A stretch of 64,000 nt of DNA from Anaerolineales bacterium (GTDB lineage: Bacteria > Chloroflexota > Anaerolineae > Anaerolineales > Villigracilaceae): the NCBI GenBank assembly GCA_919902735.1, contig CAKKRM010000164.1, forward strand, positions 1-64,000. Direction: 5' to 3'. The position numbers and the translations under genes are program-made. The notes under the pieces were generated by a model. That model worked only from the letters and a program-made list of their open reading frames with translations. It searched no databases and was not told the origin of the DNA. Below are positions 3,444-9,882 of the stretch, one piece after another; the first letter of the stretch is position 1; each line of letters starts with the position of its first letter.

Positions 3444-4673
3444 ATGGCACAGCTTGAAGAAGTCAGTATCGAGCAATTCAAACATCTGGTATCCGAGCGG
3501 GCGTTGACGGGCGAGACCATGTTGTTGAACATGGGTCCGCAGCATCCGTCCACGCATGGCGTTTTGCGTTTGCTGTTGGAGTTGGACGGCGAGATCGTTG
3601 TCAACTGCATTCCCGATATCGGGTATCTGCACACGGGCATTGAAAAGAACATGGAAGCCAAGACCTACCAAAAGGCCGAAGTGATGACCGACCGCCTCGA
3701 TTACATGAATACGATGGGCAATAACCTTGCGTATGTGATGGCGGTGGAGAAACTGGTGGATGTGGATGTGCCGCCGCGCGCGCAGGCCTTGCGCGTGATT
3801 TTGGTTGAACTCCAGCGCATCGCTTCGCATCTTGTCTGGCTTGGCACCTCGGGTCTTGACCTTGGCGCGATGTCCATGTTCCTGTATTGTTTCCGCGAGC
3901 GCGAACAGATCCTCGATATTTTCGAGCTGGTTTCAGGTCAGCGCATGATGACGACCTACATCCGCCCGGGCGGCGTGTGGCGCGATGTGCCCGTTGAATT
4001 TGAAAAAGCAGTGCGCGATTTTCTTAAGACATTTCCGAAGCGCATCGACGAATACGAAACCCTGTTGACGAAGAACCCGCTCTTTATTGACCGCATGGTG
4101 GATATCGGCTACCTGAGCAAAGAGACGGCTCTTTCCTACGGGGTAACGGGTCCTACACTACGGGCATCGGGCGTCGATTGGGATTTGCGCAAGGCGCGTC
4201 CGTATTGCGGGTATGAACAATATGATTTCAACGTGCCTGTCTTGAACGAAGGCGACACGTATGCGCGTTACCTTGTCCGTATTCAGGAATTCCGCGAATC
4301 TTTGAAGATCGTGGAACAGGCAATGAACAAATTGCCAATGGGGCCCGTGCGTTCTGAGAATCGCAAATTCGTCCCGCCGCCGCGTTCGGAGATCGGCGTG
4401 AGCATGGAGTCGCTCATCCATCACTTCAAGTTGTGGACGGAAGGCTTCCCTGCGCCGAAGGCTTCCATTTATAGCGCCATCGAATCGCCGCGCGGCGAGC
4501 AGGGTATTTTTCTGGAAGGGGATGGCGGGCCAAAGCCGCTGCGCGTTCATTTGCGTACTCCTTCATTTGATAACCTGGCTGTGGTTCCGCAGATCGTAAA
4601 GGGGCATTTGGTGGCGGATTTGGTTGCCATCCTTGCCTCCATTGACATTGTCCTCGGAGATATTGACAGATGA
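3444..4673 (+). CDS. nuoD: NADH-quinone oxidoreductase subunit D
   Basis: This is the 409-residue 49-kDa-type subunit, which forms the quinone-binding pocket with NuoB. Visible family motifs are GPQHPSTHGVLRLLLELDGE near residue 31, the GYLHTGIEKN segment, and the C-terminal SIDIVLGDIDR. The Ni-binding cysteines of the related hydrogenases are absent, as expected for complex I. It starts 2 bp after nuoC and overlaps nuoE by 4 bp (ATGA). Confidence 0.98.
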   Translation: MAQLEEVSIEQFKHLVSERALTGETMLLNMGPQHPSTHGVLRLLLELDGEIVVNCIPDIGYLHTGIEKNMEAKTYQKAEVMTDRLDYMNTMGNNLAYVMAVEKLVDVDVPPRAQALRVILVELQRIASHLVWLGTSGLDLGAMSMFLYCFREREQILDIFELVSGQRMMTTYIRPGGVWRDVPVEFEKAVRDFLKTFPKRIDEYETLLTKNPLFIDRMVDIGYLSKETALSYGVTGPTLRASGVDWDLRKARPYCGYEQYDFNVPVLNEGDTYARYLVRIQEFRESLKIVEQAMNKLPMGPVRSENRKFVPPPRSEIGVSMESLIHHFKLWTEGFPAPKASIYSAIESPRGEQGIFLEGDGGPKPLRVHLRTPSFDNLAVVPQIVKGHLVADLVAILASIDIVLGDIDR

Positions 4674-5167
4674 GCCTTGAGAAAACCCATCCGAAGGAAG
4701 TAAAACAAATTTTGTCGAAATATCCGCCTGAGCATAAACGCTCGGCGGTCATGCCGTTGCTGTACCTTGCCCAGCGCGAGGAAGGTTTCATCACCAAAGC
4801 TGCCATGCAGGATATTGCGCAGATGCTGGAGATTACCGAAACCGAAGTCGCTTCGATTGTCGGCTTTTACACGCTGTATCATGATGAAAAAGCTGGCAAG
4901 TATCGAATGCAGGTCTGCACCGACCTGCCCTGTGCCCTGCGCGGCGCGGACGAATTCGTCAATAACCTGTGCGGCAATTTGGGTATCAAGGTCGGCGAAA
5001 CCACCGCTGACGGCCTCGTCACTCTTGAATCTGTGATGTGCCTGGCCGCCTGTGACAAAGCTCCCATGTTCCAAACCCAGGGCCCGGATGGGATCCAATA
5101 TCACGAGTTGATGACCGTGGACCGCACCATGGAATTGATCGAAGCGTTGAAGAAGAGGCAGGATTGA
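4670..5167 (+). CDS. nuoE: NADH-quinone oxidoreductase subunit E
   Basis: This is the 165-residue thioredoxin-like 24-kDa subunit carrying the [2Fe-2S] cluster N1a next to the NADH site. The ligand pattern is present as C83-x4-C88 and C124-x3-C128. The N-terminal helical part contains VMPLLYLAQREEGF, typical of the family. It overlaps nuoD by 4 bp. Its usual partner nuoF does not follow directly: a HEPN/MNT gene pair lies between them. Confidence 0.97.
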   Translation: MSLEKTHPKEVKQILSKYPPEHKRSAVMPLLYLAQREEGFITKAAMQDIAQMLEITETEVASIVGFYTLYHDEKAGKYRMQVCTDLPCALRGADEFVNNLCGNLGIKVGETTADGLVTLESVMCLAACDKAPMFQTQGPDGIQYHELMTVDRTMELIEALKKRQD

Positions 5168-5204
5168 TACGTGTCGTATGATGCGTAGTTTGTAAGGAAA
5201 TAAT

Positions 5205-5603
5205 ATGAGCGATGAATCAGGATTTGATGTCGACGGACAAATAGAATATTGGCGCAGTCTGGTGAGTAAAGACCTGACCATTGCCGAGAAACTCATTATC
5301 CGTGATTCTGAGGCGGCATATGGACTGTTTTTTGTTCACATGGCGGTTGAAAAGATCATAAAAGCGCATGTGGTAAAACAGACAAGGACCTTTCCGCCAA
5401 AGAATCATAATTTGATGGCATTGGCAAATCTTGGAAAACTGGAGTTGTCGCATGAGCAATCGGATTTTTGCGGCAAAATAAATGTATATAACATTGAGGC
5501 GCGCTACCCTGGAATTTTTGCAGAATCCCCGAAGGTTGAGAAAGCCAGCGAATATCTGGCGTATGCAAAGGAGTTAATTGCATGGCTGACCGCGCAATTG
5601 TAA
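5205..5603 (+). CDS. HEPN domain protein (COG2250-like), putative toxin of a HEPN/MNT pair
   Basis: This is a 132-residue all-helical HEPN-domain protein. Supporting motifs are AYGLFFVHMAVEKIIKAH (helix 2), the FPPKNHNL segment, and YNIEARYPG near residue 97, typical of COG2250/PF05168 members. An R61-x6-H68 arrangement could match the RNase motif of active HEPN toxins, but it may only be the conserved His of non-catalytic members. It overlaps the nucleotidyltransferase gene by 22 bp in the order usual for HEPN/MNT modules, where the MNT partner neutralises the HEPN RNase. Finding the pair inside the nuo operon is unusual. It starts after AAGGAA at good spacing. Confidence 0.85.
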   Translation: MSDESGFDVDGQIEYWRSLVSKDLTIAEKLIIRDSEAAYGLFFVHMAVEKIIKAHVVKQTRTFPPKNHNLMALANLGKLELSHEQSDFCGKINVYNIEARYPGIFAESPKVEKASEYLAYAKELIAWLTAQL

Positions 5604-5911
5604 AGACAGTGCAAAACTATCTTAAATATGTAAAAAAACAGGGTATCCCTGTCAGCTACGGAGTTCTTTTCGGCTCGTATGCAAAGAATTCCGCGCATGA
5701 ATTTAGCGATATTGACTTGCTGGTTGTATCTCCCCGATTCGATGAGGTTCACAGCGCCGAAGATTATGAAAACTTATGGATGTACGCCGCCCGCACCGAT
5801 TATCGGATTGAGCCGATTCCAGTCGGCGAGAAGCAGTTTGTTAATGATAAAAATTCGATGATTATTGTAATTGCGCGCCGCGAAGGACAAAAAATTCCCC
5901 TGGCAGAATAA
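5582..5911 (+). CDS. MNT-type nucleotidyltransferase, putative antitoxin
   Basis: This 109-residue protein has the minimal nucleotidyltransferase signature: G31-S32 followed by D43-x-D45 (GSYAKNSAHEFSDIDLLVVS). The motif binds nucleotide and two metal ions. In characterised HEPN/MNT systems the MNT protein AMPylates the HEPN toxin at a Tyr; that role is inferred here from the family and the tight overlap with the HEPN gene. It ends 8 bp before the nuoF start, so all three genes are probably on the nuo transcript. Confidence 0.88.
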   Translation: MADRAIVKTVQNYLKYVKKQGIPVSYGVLFGSYAKNSAHEFSDIDLLVVSPRFDEVHSAEDYENLWMYAARTDYRIEPIPVGEKQFVNDKNSMIIVIARREGQKIPLAE

Positions 5912-5918
5912 GAGACTT

Positions 5919-7166
5919 ATGACACACATCCTTTTACGTCATCGTGATATTCCAAACATCAACAGGCTGGATGTTTATAAAAAAGACGGCGGTCTTGCCG
6001 CCTTCAAAAAAGCCGTCACCAAAATGCAGCCTAGCGAAGTGACCGACATTGTGAAGGCTTCCAACCTGCGCGGGCGCGGCGGCGCGGGTTTTCCTACAGG
6101 CCTGAAGTGGTCTTTCATCGATAACAAGAATTGGCCGCATTACGTGGTTGCCAATGCAGACGAATCCGAACCTGGCACCTTCAAAGACCGCGAGATCATG
6201 GAAGGCAATCCCTTCCAGTTTTTGGAGGGTCTCGCGCTCGGCAGTTATGCCGTCGGCGCTAACACGGCTTATATTTACTTGCGCGGCGAGTTCTGGCAGG
6301 TGGCCGCCTTCCTCGACGAAAAGATCGCGGAGATGGAAAAAGCTGGCTATCTCGGCGAAAACCTTTTCGGCACCGAATACTCGCTCAAGATTTATACCCA
6401 TCTTGGCGCGGGCGCGTACATCTGCGGCGAAGAGACGGCTTTGCTCGAATCCATCGAAGGCAAGCGCGGACAGCCTCGTGTGCGTCCGCCATTCCCACCT
6501 TCTTATGGACTTTACGGCAAGCCGACCATTATCAACAATGTGGAGACATTTACCAATGTGCCGATGATCCTCGCCAATGGCGCGGATTGGTACAAGACCA
6601 TGGGCACACTCGATAGCGCGGGCGTGAAGATATTTTCACTTTCTGGCCGCGTGCGTAAACCTGGCAATTATGAATTGCCATTCGGAACCACCTTCCGCCA
6701 GTTGATTTATGAACATGCAGGCGGCGTGCAGGAAGGCCGGCCTGTCAAGGCGATCATGCCTGCGGGCGCATCCTCTTCGTTGATCGTGGTGGATGATAAG
6801 GTGTTGGATACCCCGATGGACTATGCCACCGTCCGCATGCTCGGGGCGGACCTGGGGTCTGCTTCTGTGATCGTGCTGGACGACACGGTGGATATTGACT
6901 GGGTCGTCAACAAGACCATCAAATTCTTCAAGCATGAATCCTGTGGCAAATGCACTCCCTGCCGCGAGGGTAATTATTGGATGAAAAATCTCACCAGCCG
7001 TATCCATTCGGGCAAGGGTTCATCGGAAGATGTGGACTTGCTTTTGAATGTCGCCAAACAAATGCAGGGCAAGTGTTTGTGCGCGCTGGGTGAATTCTCC
7101 ACGATGGCTGTGGTGACCGGTATCGAACGATTCCCGCAGGATTTCAAGAAGGCAGTGAGCAAGTGA
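5919..7166 (+). CDS. nuoF: NADH-quinone oxidoreductase subunit F
   Basis: This is the 415-residue 51-kDa subunit that binds NADH, FMN and the N3 [4Fe-4S] cluster. The Gly-rich NADH site RGRGGAGFPTG is at 51-61, the FMN-binding GAGAYICGEETALLES at about 163-178, and the cluster ligands in ESCGKCTPCREG (about 340-351) with the final Cys near 388. ATG 5919 gives family length; an in-frame ATG at 5871 would overlap the upstream gene and is rejected. The Shine-Dalgarno site is weak. The stop codon lies within a heptamer repeat. Confidence 0.97.
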   Translation: MTHILLRHRDIPNINRLDVYKKDGGLAAFKKAVTKMQPSEVTDIVKASNLRGRGGAGFPTGLKWSFIDNKNWPHYVVANADESEPGTFKDREIMEGNPFQFLEGLALGSYAVGANTAYIYLRGEFWQVAAFLDEKIAEMEKAGYLGENLFGTEYSLKIYTHLGAGAYICGEETALLESIEGKRGQPRVRPPFPPSYGLYGKPTIINNVETFTNVPMILANGADWYKTMGTLDSAGVKIFSLSGRVRKPGNYELPFGTTFRQLIYEHAGGVQEGRPVKAIMPAGASSSLIVVDDKVLDTPMDYATVRMLGADLGSASVIVLDDTVDIDWVVNKTIKFFKHESCGKCTPCREGNYWMKNLTSRIHSGKGSSEDVDLLLNVAKQMQGKCLCALGEFSTMAVVTGIERFPQDFKKAVSK

Positions 7167-7199
7167 TCAGTAAACAGTGATCAGTAATCAGTAATCAGT
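7165..7199 (+). repeat. Heptanucleotide tandem repeat, 5 units of (G/A)ATCAGT type
   Basis: Five consecutive 7-mers (GATCAGT, AAACAGT, GATCAGT, AATCAGT, AATCAGT) fill exactly the gap between the nuoF stop and the ATG at 7200. This is one of many 7-bp-period tracts in the window. Confidence 0.9.
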
Positions 7200-7403
7200 A
7201 TGGATACATCGAATTGTCGAATGATTTTTAGAGAAGAAGACGAAGGCGGCTTTACTGTACTTGTTCCCGATCTTTCAGGCTGCATTACGTTTGGCGAAAC
7301 GATGGAAGAAGCGACAGAAATGGCGAAAGAAGCAATTGAATTGTACTTTGAGAGCCTGCAAGCGCATGGCGAGAAACAAAAGAAATTTAGGACTGATTGG
7401 TGA
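7200..7403 (+). CDS. HicB-like antitoxin domain protein, orphan
   Basis: This 67-residue protein matches the HicB fold. An EEDEGGFTVLVPDLSGCITF core is followed by GETMEEATEMAKEAIELYFES, the classic partial RNase-H-like strand-helix pattern. HicB proteins normally neutralise a HicA mRNA interferase from an adjacent gene. No hicA-like ORF is visible on either side, so it is either an orphan or a solitary HicB_like protein of unknown role. It has no C-terminal DNA-binding domain. It is inserted between nuoF and nuoG, 4 bp before nuoG, and begins directly after a heptamer tract with no clear Shine-Dalgarno sequence. Confidence 0.8.
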   Translation: MDTSNCRMIFREEDEGGFTVLVPDLSGCITFGETMEEATEMAKEAIELYFESLQAHGEKQKKFRTDW

Positions 7404-7407
7404 ATTG

Positions 7408-9882
7408 ATGAGCAAACAGGTAACACTATCAATTAATGGAATAAATGTAACGGTCCCGGATGGAACGCTGGTTGCGGATGCGGCAAAGATGGCGGGCATT
7501 GATATCCCTGTCTTTTGCCATCATCCCAAACTTGAGCCTGTTGGCATGTGCCGCATGTGTCTGGTGGAAGTTGGCAGACCCATGCTGGACCGCGCTACGG
7601 GTCAGGTGGTGATGGAGAATGGTCAGCCCAAGATTCAGTTCATGCCCAAGCTTGAAACGGCTTGCACCAACCACGTTTCTGAAGGCATGGTTGTGTTGAC
7701 GGTCTCGGACAAGGCGAAGGATGGGCAGAAGGGCACCGTTGAATTTTTGCTCACTTCGCATCCGCTGGATTGCCCGGTCTGTGATAAGGGTGGCGAATGC
7801 CCATTGCAAAACCTGACCATGCAATTTGGTCCGGGCAAGAGCCGCTTTAATTATGATGAGAAACTGCATCTCGAGAAGCAAGTCCCACTGGGTGAATTGA
7901 TCTGGCTGGACCGCGAACGCTGCATTCAATGCGCGCGCTGTATTCGTTTTCAGGATGAAGTAGCGGGCGAGGCAGTCCTCGGTTTCGATGAGCGCGGACG
8001 CAACACACAGATCGTTTCATTATCCAACCCCGGGTTTGATTCTGTTTTCTCCGGCAATACCACCGACATCTGCCCCGTCGGCGCGTTGACGACTGCGGAC
8101 TTCCGCTTTGGCGCGCGTCCGTGGGAATTGAAGGCGCAGGCTTCCATTTGTACGCAATGTCCCGTGGGATGCAATACCACGCTCAACACGCGCCGCGAAG
8201 CGAAGGCTGGCGGCGACGTTGTGGTGAAGCGCGTGATGCCGCGCCAGAACGAAGAAGTGAATGAGATCTGGTTGTGCGACAAGGGACGCTTTACTCATCA
8301 CTATACCGAAAGCAAGAAAAGACTCACCAAGCCGATGATTCGCAAAGAGGAAAAACTTGCGCGCACTTCGTGGGACGCCGCTACAAAATTGGCGGCTGAG
8401 AATTTCACTTCGTATAAAAAAGATTTTGTGGTGCTGGCATCGGGCCGTTTGGCAAATGAGGATTTGTTCAACCTCAAGTCACTGGCAGACCATGCGGATG
8501 GCACAGCCATTTTGTACTCCGATATGGGCGGCGGTGACCTGACTCAGTTGGTGGGTGTGGGCGCGGGCACGAACATCGGCAAGATGGGCGCAGGCGATGC
8601 GATCCTCGTGGTGGCGTCCGATTTATATGAAGAAGCTCCCATCTGGTGGCTGCGCGTGAAGCAAGCCGCGGACCGCGGCGCGACTTTGATCGTTGCGAAT
8701 CCGCGCGCGACCAAACTGGATAAATTTGCGAAGTTCACCATCCGTTATGCGTATGGCGATGAAGTAAAGACGATCAGCGATTTCAGCAGGAAGAGTAAGA
8801 TCGCGGATGAATTTGCGAAGGCGAAGAACGCGATTGTGTTCTACGGCAGTGAGGGACTGGGCTTGAATGGCTCATCTACATTGGCTTCTGCCTGTGCCTC
8901 TCTATTGAAAGAAACAGATCACGTTGGCAGACCGAACAACGGTTTGATCAGTGTCTGGCAGAGAGCCAATGACCAGGGCGCGTGGGAAGTTGGCTTCCGT
9001 CCCGTGGCTGATCTGGGCAAGGCTCTCAAAGGAAAAGCAGTCTATATCGTGGGCGCGGACCCAGTGGGGGATGACCCTAATTTAGCGAAGGCTTTGAAGG
9101 GCGCGAAATTCGTTGCGGTGCAGGATATCCTTGAAACCGCCACAACGGAAATTGCGGATGTGGTTTTCCCTGCCCAGGTTTATACCGAGCGCGAAGGTAC
9201 TTATATTTCAGGCGAACGCCGTGTTCAGCGTTTCTACCCAGCCGTTCCGCCAACGGGTGATGCGAAGCCTGATTTTGCGATCACCTCGCAGGTTGCCAGG
9301 CAAATGGGAGTCATTCTCGAAGGCTCGTCCGCTTCGGTGGTCTTCGATATTCTGGCAAACTCCATTGATGGCATGGCGGATTTGAGTTACGCAAATCTCG
9401 CCGGGGTACATGGTCAATGGCCGATTGTGGGGCGCGGTGACTTGTACTACGGCGGCACAACCTATGAGAACACGCAGGGCTTGGGTGTGCAACTCGTCCC
9501 GATGGCTCAGGCTGGGGGAACGGTGCGCATTCTAAAGATCAGGAAGGAAGCGGCTCTTCGTCCCAAGGAAAAGGAATTGATTGCTGTACCTGTCAATAAA
9601 TTATATGATCGCGGTGTGACCATTAATCCCGCGCAGTTGTTGAACGAACGTGTGGGTGAGGCGACGGTGGCGTTGCACCCGACCACTGCAAAGAAGATGG
9701 GACTGGAAGCTGGCGCGCGCGTCAAGATCAGTTTCGATGGCGTGAACGGGGATGCCCTGCTAAAGATGGACGATACGATTTCAACGGGTGTGGTGTTGGT
9801 GCCGCGCAGTATGGGCATTGCCATCCGTGAACCTGTGGCGGCGCGCGTCCAGATGCAGGCCGCATCTGGGAAGGTGAAATAA
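7408..9882 (+). CDS. nuoG: NADH-quinone oxidoreductase subunit G
   Basis: This is the 824-residue 75-kDa subunit, with a ferredoxin-like N-terminal part and a molybdopterin-oxidoreductase-like body. The cluster ligands are visible in order: FCHHPKLEPVGMCRMC for N1b, HPLDCPVCDKGGECPLQN, CIQCARCIRF and later CPVGAL for N4/N5, then CTQCPVGC with a distant Cys (LCDKGR) that may hold the extra N7 cluster. The body (about 250-690) resembles formate dehydrogenase but no molybdenum cofactor is expected. ATG 7408 gives the normal N-terminus (SKQVTLSINGI); earlier in-frame codons overlap the HicB gene. It ends 1 bp before nuoH. Confidence 0.96.
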   Translation: MSKQVTLSINGINVTVPDGTLVADAAKMAGIDIPVFCHHPKLEPVGMCRMCLVEVGRPMLDRATGQVVMENGQPKIQFMPKLETACTNHVSEGMVVLTVSDKAKDGQKGTVEFLLTSHPLDCPVCDKGGECPLQNLTMQFGPGKSRFNYDEKLHLEKQVPLGELIWLDRERCIQCARCIRFQDEVAGEAVLGFDERGRNTQIVSLSNPGFDSVFSGNTTDICPVGALTTADFRFGARPWELKAQASICTQCPVGCNTTLNTRREAKAGGDVVVKRVMPRQNEEVNEIWLCDKGRFTHHYTESKKRLTKPMIRKEEKLARTSWDAATKLAAENFTSYKKDFVVLASGRLANEDLFNLKSLADHADGTAILYSDMGGGDLTQLVGVGAGTNIGKMGAGDAILVVASDLYEEAPIWWLRVKQAADRGATLIVANPRATKLDKFAKFTIRYAYGDEVKTISDFSRKSKIADEFAKAKNAIVFYGSEGLGLNGSSTLASACASLLKETDHVGRPNNGLISVWQRANDQGAWEVGFRPVADLGKALKGKAVYIVGADPVGDDPNLAKALKGAKFVAVQDILETATTEIADVVFPAQVYTEREGTYISGERRVQRFYPAVPPTGDAKPDFAITSQVARQMGVILEGSSASVVFDILANSIDGMADLSYANLAGVHGQWPIVGRGDLYYGGTTYENTQGLGVQLVPMAQAGGTVRILKIRKEAALRPKEKELIAVPVNKLYDRGVTINPAQLLNERVGEATVALHPTTAKKMGLEAGARVKISFDGVNGDALLKMDDTISTGVVLVPRSMGIAIREPVAARVQMQAASGKVK

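Follow-up and report, generated by a model that had tools for sequence, protein, structure and literature searches.

Class I HEPN/MNT systems, the type VII toxin-antitoxin (TA) systems of which HepT/MntA of Shewanella oneidensis and HEPN-MNT of Legionella pneumophila are examples, consist of two small adjoining genes, one of which encodes a protein of HEPN fold. Class II HEPN/MNT modules are defined by a PF05168 HEPN protein with a conserved tyrosine and without the RX4HXY motif (Yao et al. 2020, PMC7641770), and the accompanying MNT belongs to PF01909 and carries the GSX10DXD motif (Makarova 2009, Yao 2020). To the knowledge of Yao et al. (2020, PMC7641770), no biochemical work on Class II had been carried out. 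Class II modules have been described as mobile, and TA modules are usually viewed as mobile genes of islands or plasmids. The pair examined here lies in the complex I (nuo) operon of the window, by which we mean the whole 64-kb stretch of DNA analysed. With Class I it shares the two small adjoining genes, the HEPN fold, the GSX10DXD motif of the MNT and a conserved tyrosine located towards the end of helix four of HEPN, but it lacks RX4HXY, its HEPN gene comes first, its MNT scores far below the MntA cut-off and it is embedded among nuo genes. With Class II it shares the PF05168 HEPN protein without RX4HXY, the conserved tyrosine and the PF01909 MNT with GSX10DXD; however, its lineage is tied to a single junction of a core operon, and the core gene downstream is apparently coupled to the pair.

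The order of genes on the + strand of the window is nuoE (NADH-quinone oxidoreductase subunit E, the upstream flank; 4670..5167, TIGR01958, E 3.5e-46), a gene for a HEPN protein of 132 aa (putative toxin of Class II type; 5205..5603, PF05168, E 1.2e-14), a gene for an MNT of 109 aa (putative nucleotidyltransferase antitoxin; 5582..5911, PF01909, E 5.8e-10) and nuoF (complex I 51-kDa-type subunit, the downstream flank; 5919..7166, TIGR01959, E 8e-163). The spacing is 37 bp from nuoE to HEPN and 7 bp from MNT to nuoF, in agreement with a preliminary description of the locus, which did not mention that the HEPN and MNT genes overlap by 22 bp (5582..5603, + strand), an architecture found equally in related pairs. 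That description had also held that the pair has no promoter or terminator, and we likewise found none of its own: a scan, of limited weight because it covers one type of promoter, gave no promoter-like site on the + strand between nuoE and MNT, and no terminator-like site was found on that strand between nuoE and nuoF. Close to the pair, the + strand has a single promoter-like site, at 4332 within nuoD, and such sites are about as numerous as in shuffled sequence. Given the shared strand, the tight gaps and the lack of any sign of a separate promoter, expression of the pair together with complex I, as proposed earlier, is likely. Chance or misassembly as the origin of the arrangement was excluded, because it recurs in 21 further genomes of the family; some of the relatives' loci sit on contigs of 0.1-3 Mb.

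The HEPN protein matches PF05168 at 54.9 bits (cut-off 22). The best PDB matches of its AlphaFold model (mean pLDDT 92.6) by Foldseek are HEPN structures (TT1696, TM 0.76; AF0298, TM 0.72), and a PDB search with the HEPN sequence profile returned no match at E 0.01. By motif scan, the 16 intact HEPN proteins of the nuoE-nuoF site all lack RX4HXY and all have N-x6-R-Y; in the alignment, H68, N93 and R100-Y101 are invariant. The absence of RX4HXY leaves the preliminary label of HEPN RNase unsupported, while the identification of a TA-type HEPN/MNT pair stands (PF05168, PF01909). The MNT of the window has an intact GSX10DXD motif, as do those of all 22 loci that carry an intact MNT of this type (hereafter carriers), and a conserved tail, RREGQxIPLAE; against the MntA equivalog NF047752 it reaches 31.3 bits, under the 60-bit cut-off. 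With a PF05168 component lacking RX4HXY, a conserved tyrosine and an adjoining PF01909 MNT with GSX10DXD, the pair is, as judged from its sequence features, a Class II module of putative toxicity and putative neutralisation by the MNT; RX4HXY in 0/16 proteins and the low NF047752 score place it outside type VII (Class I HepT/MntA). The MNT also has weak PADLOC matches to PDC-S09 candidates, which would suit a phage-defence (abortive infection) module held under a constitutive housekeeping promoter, and the rapid divergence of HEPN and the horizontal exchange described below would fit an arms race. Such a role seems to us very improbable, as HEPN has no match in PADLOC, no defence genes were seen in the neighbourhood of the nuo loci, and a fixed place in a core operon is unusual for defence islands.

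We searched 150 genomes of the family and obtained 141 nuo loci with a nuoE-nuoF spacing. An insert of more than 180 bp separates nuoE and nuoF in 25 of these, and 22 have an intact MNT of the window type there. Across the 150 genomes, the MNT search gave 23 matches at E <= 3e-29, 22 of them at nuoE-nuoF; the lone strong match elsewhere is on G040:C52, and the next-best match has E 1e-7. In a tree of MNT proteins, a branch of modest support (63/89) sets the 25 nuoE-nuoF copies apart from the rest. This indicates that the lineage occurs almost only at that junction. Among named relatives, the nuo arrangement occurs in MAGs of Anaerolineales or of other Chloroflexota, and beyond these the homologous HEPN/MNT pairs sit at other places. 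A recent insertion present in this strain only, which the preliminary description had considered and proposed to check by synteny, does not agree with a slot-specific lineage whose MNT is carried by 22/141 loci.

On the NuoDEF tree, 21 state changes are needed to account for the 22 carriers, and close relatives may be without the cassette (e.g. L166, in comparison with L066). The identity of MNT proteins is weakly correlated with that of NuoDEF (Mantel r 0.18). Between the window (L000) and its sister L077, NuoDEF is 96% identical and MNT 53% identical; nucleotide identity is about 0.9 in the flank, falls to 0.35-0.65 inside the cassette and is 0.9 again in nuoF. In the pair L082/L084, dS is 0.56-0.61 for the cassette versus 1.2-1.6 for nuoE/nuoF. 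Strict vertical inheritance of the cassette was rejected on the basis of this allele discordance, and the occurrence of so divergent a pair in sister species with near-identical NuoDEF indicates that the cassette is exchanged horizontally between species at a fixed nuoE-nuoF site. Synonymous identity by blocks revealed no clear recombination tract in the flanks; exchange may proceed through flanking nuo homology. Part of the discordance could instead stem from old tandem copies followed by differential loss (compare G080, which carries two HEPN genes).

These patterns bear on whether the pair has become a complex I regulator, in which MNT would nucleotidylate a product of the nuo genes or a partner of complex I, HEPN would be the substrate-binding subunit and the pair would tune respiration. 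Domestication of this kind has a precedent in MNT-HEPN modules that became regulatory enzymes (Anantharaman et al. 2013, PMC3710099), and would be consistent with the specificity of the lineage for nuoE-nuoF, with the retention of GSX10DXD in the MNT of 22/22 carriers, even where HEPN is broken, and with purifying selection. We nevertheless regard it as unlikely: presence is sporadic, with nearly as many changes as carriers and absence in very close relatives, unrelated TA families occur in the same operon, and HEPN is strongly diverged, whereas the partner subunit of a regulator should be stable. Sporadic presence, and close relatives that do without the pair, also leave coupling to respiration, an earlier suggestion, unsupported as a function.

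In comparable pairs, dN/dS is 0.09-0.10 for HEPN and 0.04-0.13 for MNT, which points to purifying selection on both genes alike. All 22 carriers have an intact MNT, and six of them have a broken HEPN (L066, L068, L070, L071, L076, L077), the gene being missing, truncated, internally deleted or interrupted; this contrast is inflated, as carriers were chosen by their intact MNT, although loci that have lost MNT are few. No intact canonical HEPN without MNT was found among the nuo loci. Two loci (L065, L067) retain a HEPN-like gene only, in which, with the MNT gone, the conserved His and Arg have been lost, so that His68 and Arg100 are candidates for the toxic site. A further locus (L095) bears the scar of a lost cassette, with part of the MNT tail still encoded. 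The scar, the sporadic distribution and the frequent decay of HEPN and of the HicA and DUF4258 genes discussed below are what would be expected of neutral or nearly neutral passengers, TA-type genes that land, on the same strand, in gaps of a long operon, where they are tolerated and decay. The dN/dS values near 0.05-0.1 for both genes and the confinement of a single lineage to one junction argue otherwise, as does the absence of TA genes from 40 atp and ribosomal loci, even if those operons are unusually constrained; we hold this explanation to be a little less likely still than that of a domesticated regulator.

The junction between the MNT stop and the nuoF start (5879..5921, + strand; CGCGAAGGACAAAAAATTCCCCTGGCAGAATAA gagactt ATG) is conserved and has no Shine-Dalgarno sequence. 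The distance from the MNT stop to the nuoF start (nominal, from the alignment) is 6-11 nt in 22/22 carriers. A Shine-Dalgarno core within 22 nt upstream of nuoF is present in none of the 22 carriers and in 81 of 119 non-carriers (P = 5e-10 by Fisher's exact test, a value that does not count independent events, as the 22 carrier junctions share a common origin); about a third of non-carriers are also without a strict Shine-Dalgarno at nuoF. As carriers lack a signal that most non-carriers have, these data suggest that nuoF is translationally coupled to the MNT stop codon. L065 and L067, although without MNT, still keep PLAE or PLAK, the stop, a short spacer and the ATG of nuoF. That TA insertion generally leads to loss of the Shine-Dalgarno was considered and rejected, since no such loss is seen at nuoF-nuoG or nuoL-nuoM, and the proposed coupling is therefore limited to nuoE-nuoF. 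The absence of the signal in every carrier, together with purifying selection and the exchange of alleles at one junction, makes the alternative offered in the preliminary description, that of a simply tolerated insertion, too weak.

The reading that we favour, with a probability of roughly 0.6, is that of a promoterless Class II HEPN/MNT cassette of TA type that resides in nuo, is exchanged horizontally and has nuoF translation tied to its antitoxin; the pair would probably be selfish, and is now part of a core operon. The cassette would be transcribed together with complex I, with no promoter of its own; HEPN would be translated first, MNT would be coupled to HEPN through the 22-bp overlap, and nuoF would be coupled in turn to the MNT stop codon. 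If the pair works as Class I systems do, nucleotidylation of the conserved Y101 is the means by which MNT would neutralise HEPN. Within Anaerolineales the cassette probably entered nuoE-nuoF on one or a few occasions, after which it would have behaved as an allele, often lost and regained by recombination via nuoE/nuoF homology. Two effects may favour its persistence: addiction, if loss of MNT in the presence of HEPN is harmful, and lock-in, if nuoF translation relies on that of MNT.

Further slots of the operon are taken by other TA families. HicBA, a different family, or its remnants are found at nuoF-nuoG in 14 loci, including the window, where a lone HicB-like antitoxin remnant without HicA (7200..7403, + strand; PF15919, E 3.2e-13) is followed after 4 nt by the start of nuoG (7408..9882, + strand). 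No match to HicA, and thus no HicB with an adjacent HicA, was found in the nuo locus of the window; relatives have complete HicBA pairs in this slot, and the six best HicA matches genome-wide (E <= 5e-33) are all at nuoF-nuoG. DUF4258/YgiT (MqsRA-like), a further family that is absent from the operon of the window, occurs at nuoL-nuoM in six loci (L066, L070, L071, L086, L166, L205). Six of the seven best DUF4258 matches (E <= 1.2e-35) are at nuoL-nuoM, and the contig of the seventh (G068:C195) also bears a piece of nuoF, at a distance that fits the same slot. In G015 (L069) the DUF4258/YgiT pair is at nuoE-nuoF instead. Every TA gene found in the nuo operon is on the operon strand. HEPN/MNT co-occurs with HicB by counts (P = 2e-4), but the association is not clear after phylogenetic pairing (median P = 0.06). 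No TA genes were found in the 40 atp and ribosomal control loci, taken mostly from genomes that bear nuo TA genes; these were searched directly for TA proteins, as automatic ORF calling was poor in atp loci. Since the controls are strongly constrained, what the contrast shows is that operons do not generally take up such insertions, and not that nuo is unique.

In one bacterial family, the complex I operon thus houses resident lineages of three unrelated TA families, each lineage at a junction of its own, and exchange in place between species is evident for HEPN/MNT. In a literature search of limited coverage, we found no earlier description of TA genes within a nuo operon. A broader interpretation, which we advance tentatively and think rather doubtful, is that TA cassettes may act as self-favouring alleles of a core operon: recombination in the flanking nuo genes would install them, addiction would penalise their replacement and the coupling of nuoF would create dependence, convergently in the three families; similar cassettes adjoin icd, ileS and mce elsewhere. 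If residence, exchange in place and the coupling of nuoF hold, carriers, decayed carriers, scars and non-carriers would be natural replicates for testing the persistence of chromosomal TA systems, and the nuo pairs would offer an entry into Class II HEPN/MNT, a putative TA class.

Several further arrangements were observed. The nuo operon of L086 (G114:C46) combines three pairs of TA type (HEPN/MNT, HicBA and DUF4258/YgiT). Two loci (L144, L174) have a Phd/YefM and PIN pair at nuoJ-nuoK, with, in L174, an additional DNA-methyltransferase-like gene at nuoF-nuoG. A protein of 162-165 aa is encoded between nuoC and nuoD in L065 and L083, the copy in L083 being without a Pfam match. In the window, short repeats (gatcagtaatcagtaatcagt) lie directly upstream of HicB (7167-7200). 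In a distant Chloroflexota nuo operon (L256, about 5530-6330), a HEPN/MNT pair is located between nuoL and nuoM. Related pairs also adjoin other housekeeping genes: in two Ignavibacteria (L268, L269; about 4450-6735) the pair follows panD/GlmU-like genes and precedes mce (methylmalonyl-CoA epimerase), in L277 it precedes ileS, and in L278 HEPN comes first, followed by a single open reading frame for both MNT and NADP isocitrate dehydrogenase (icd).
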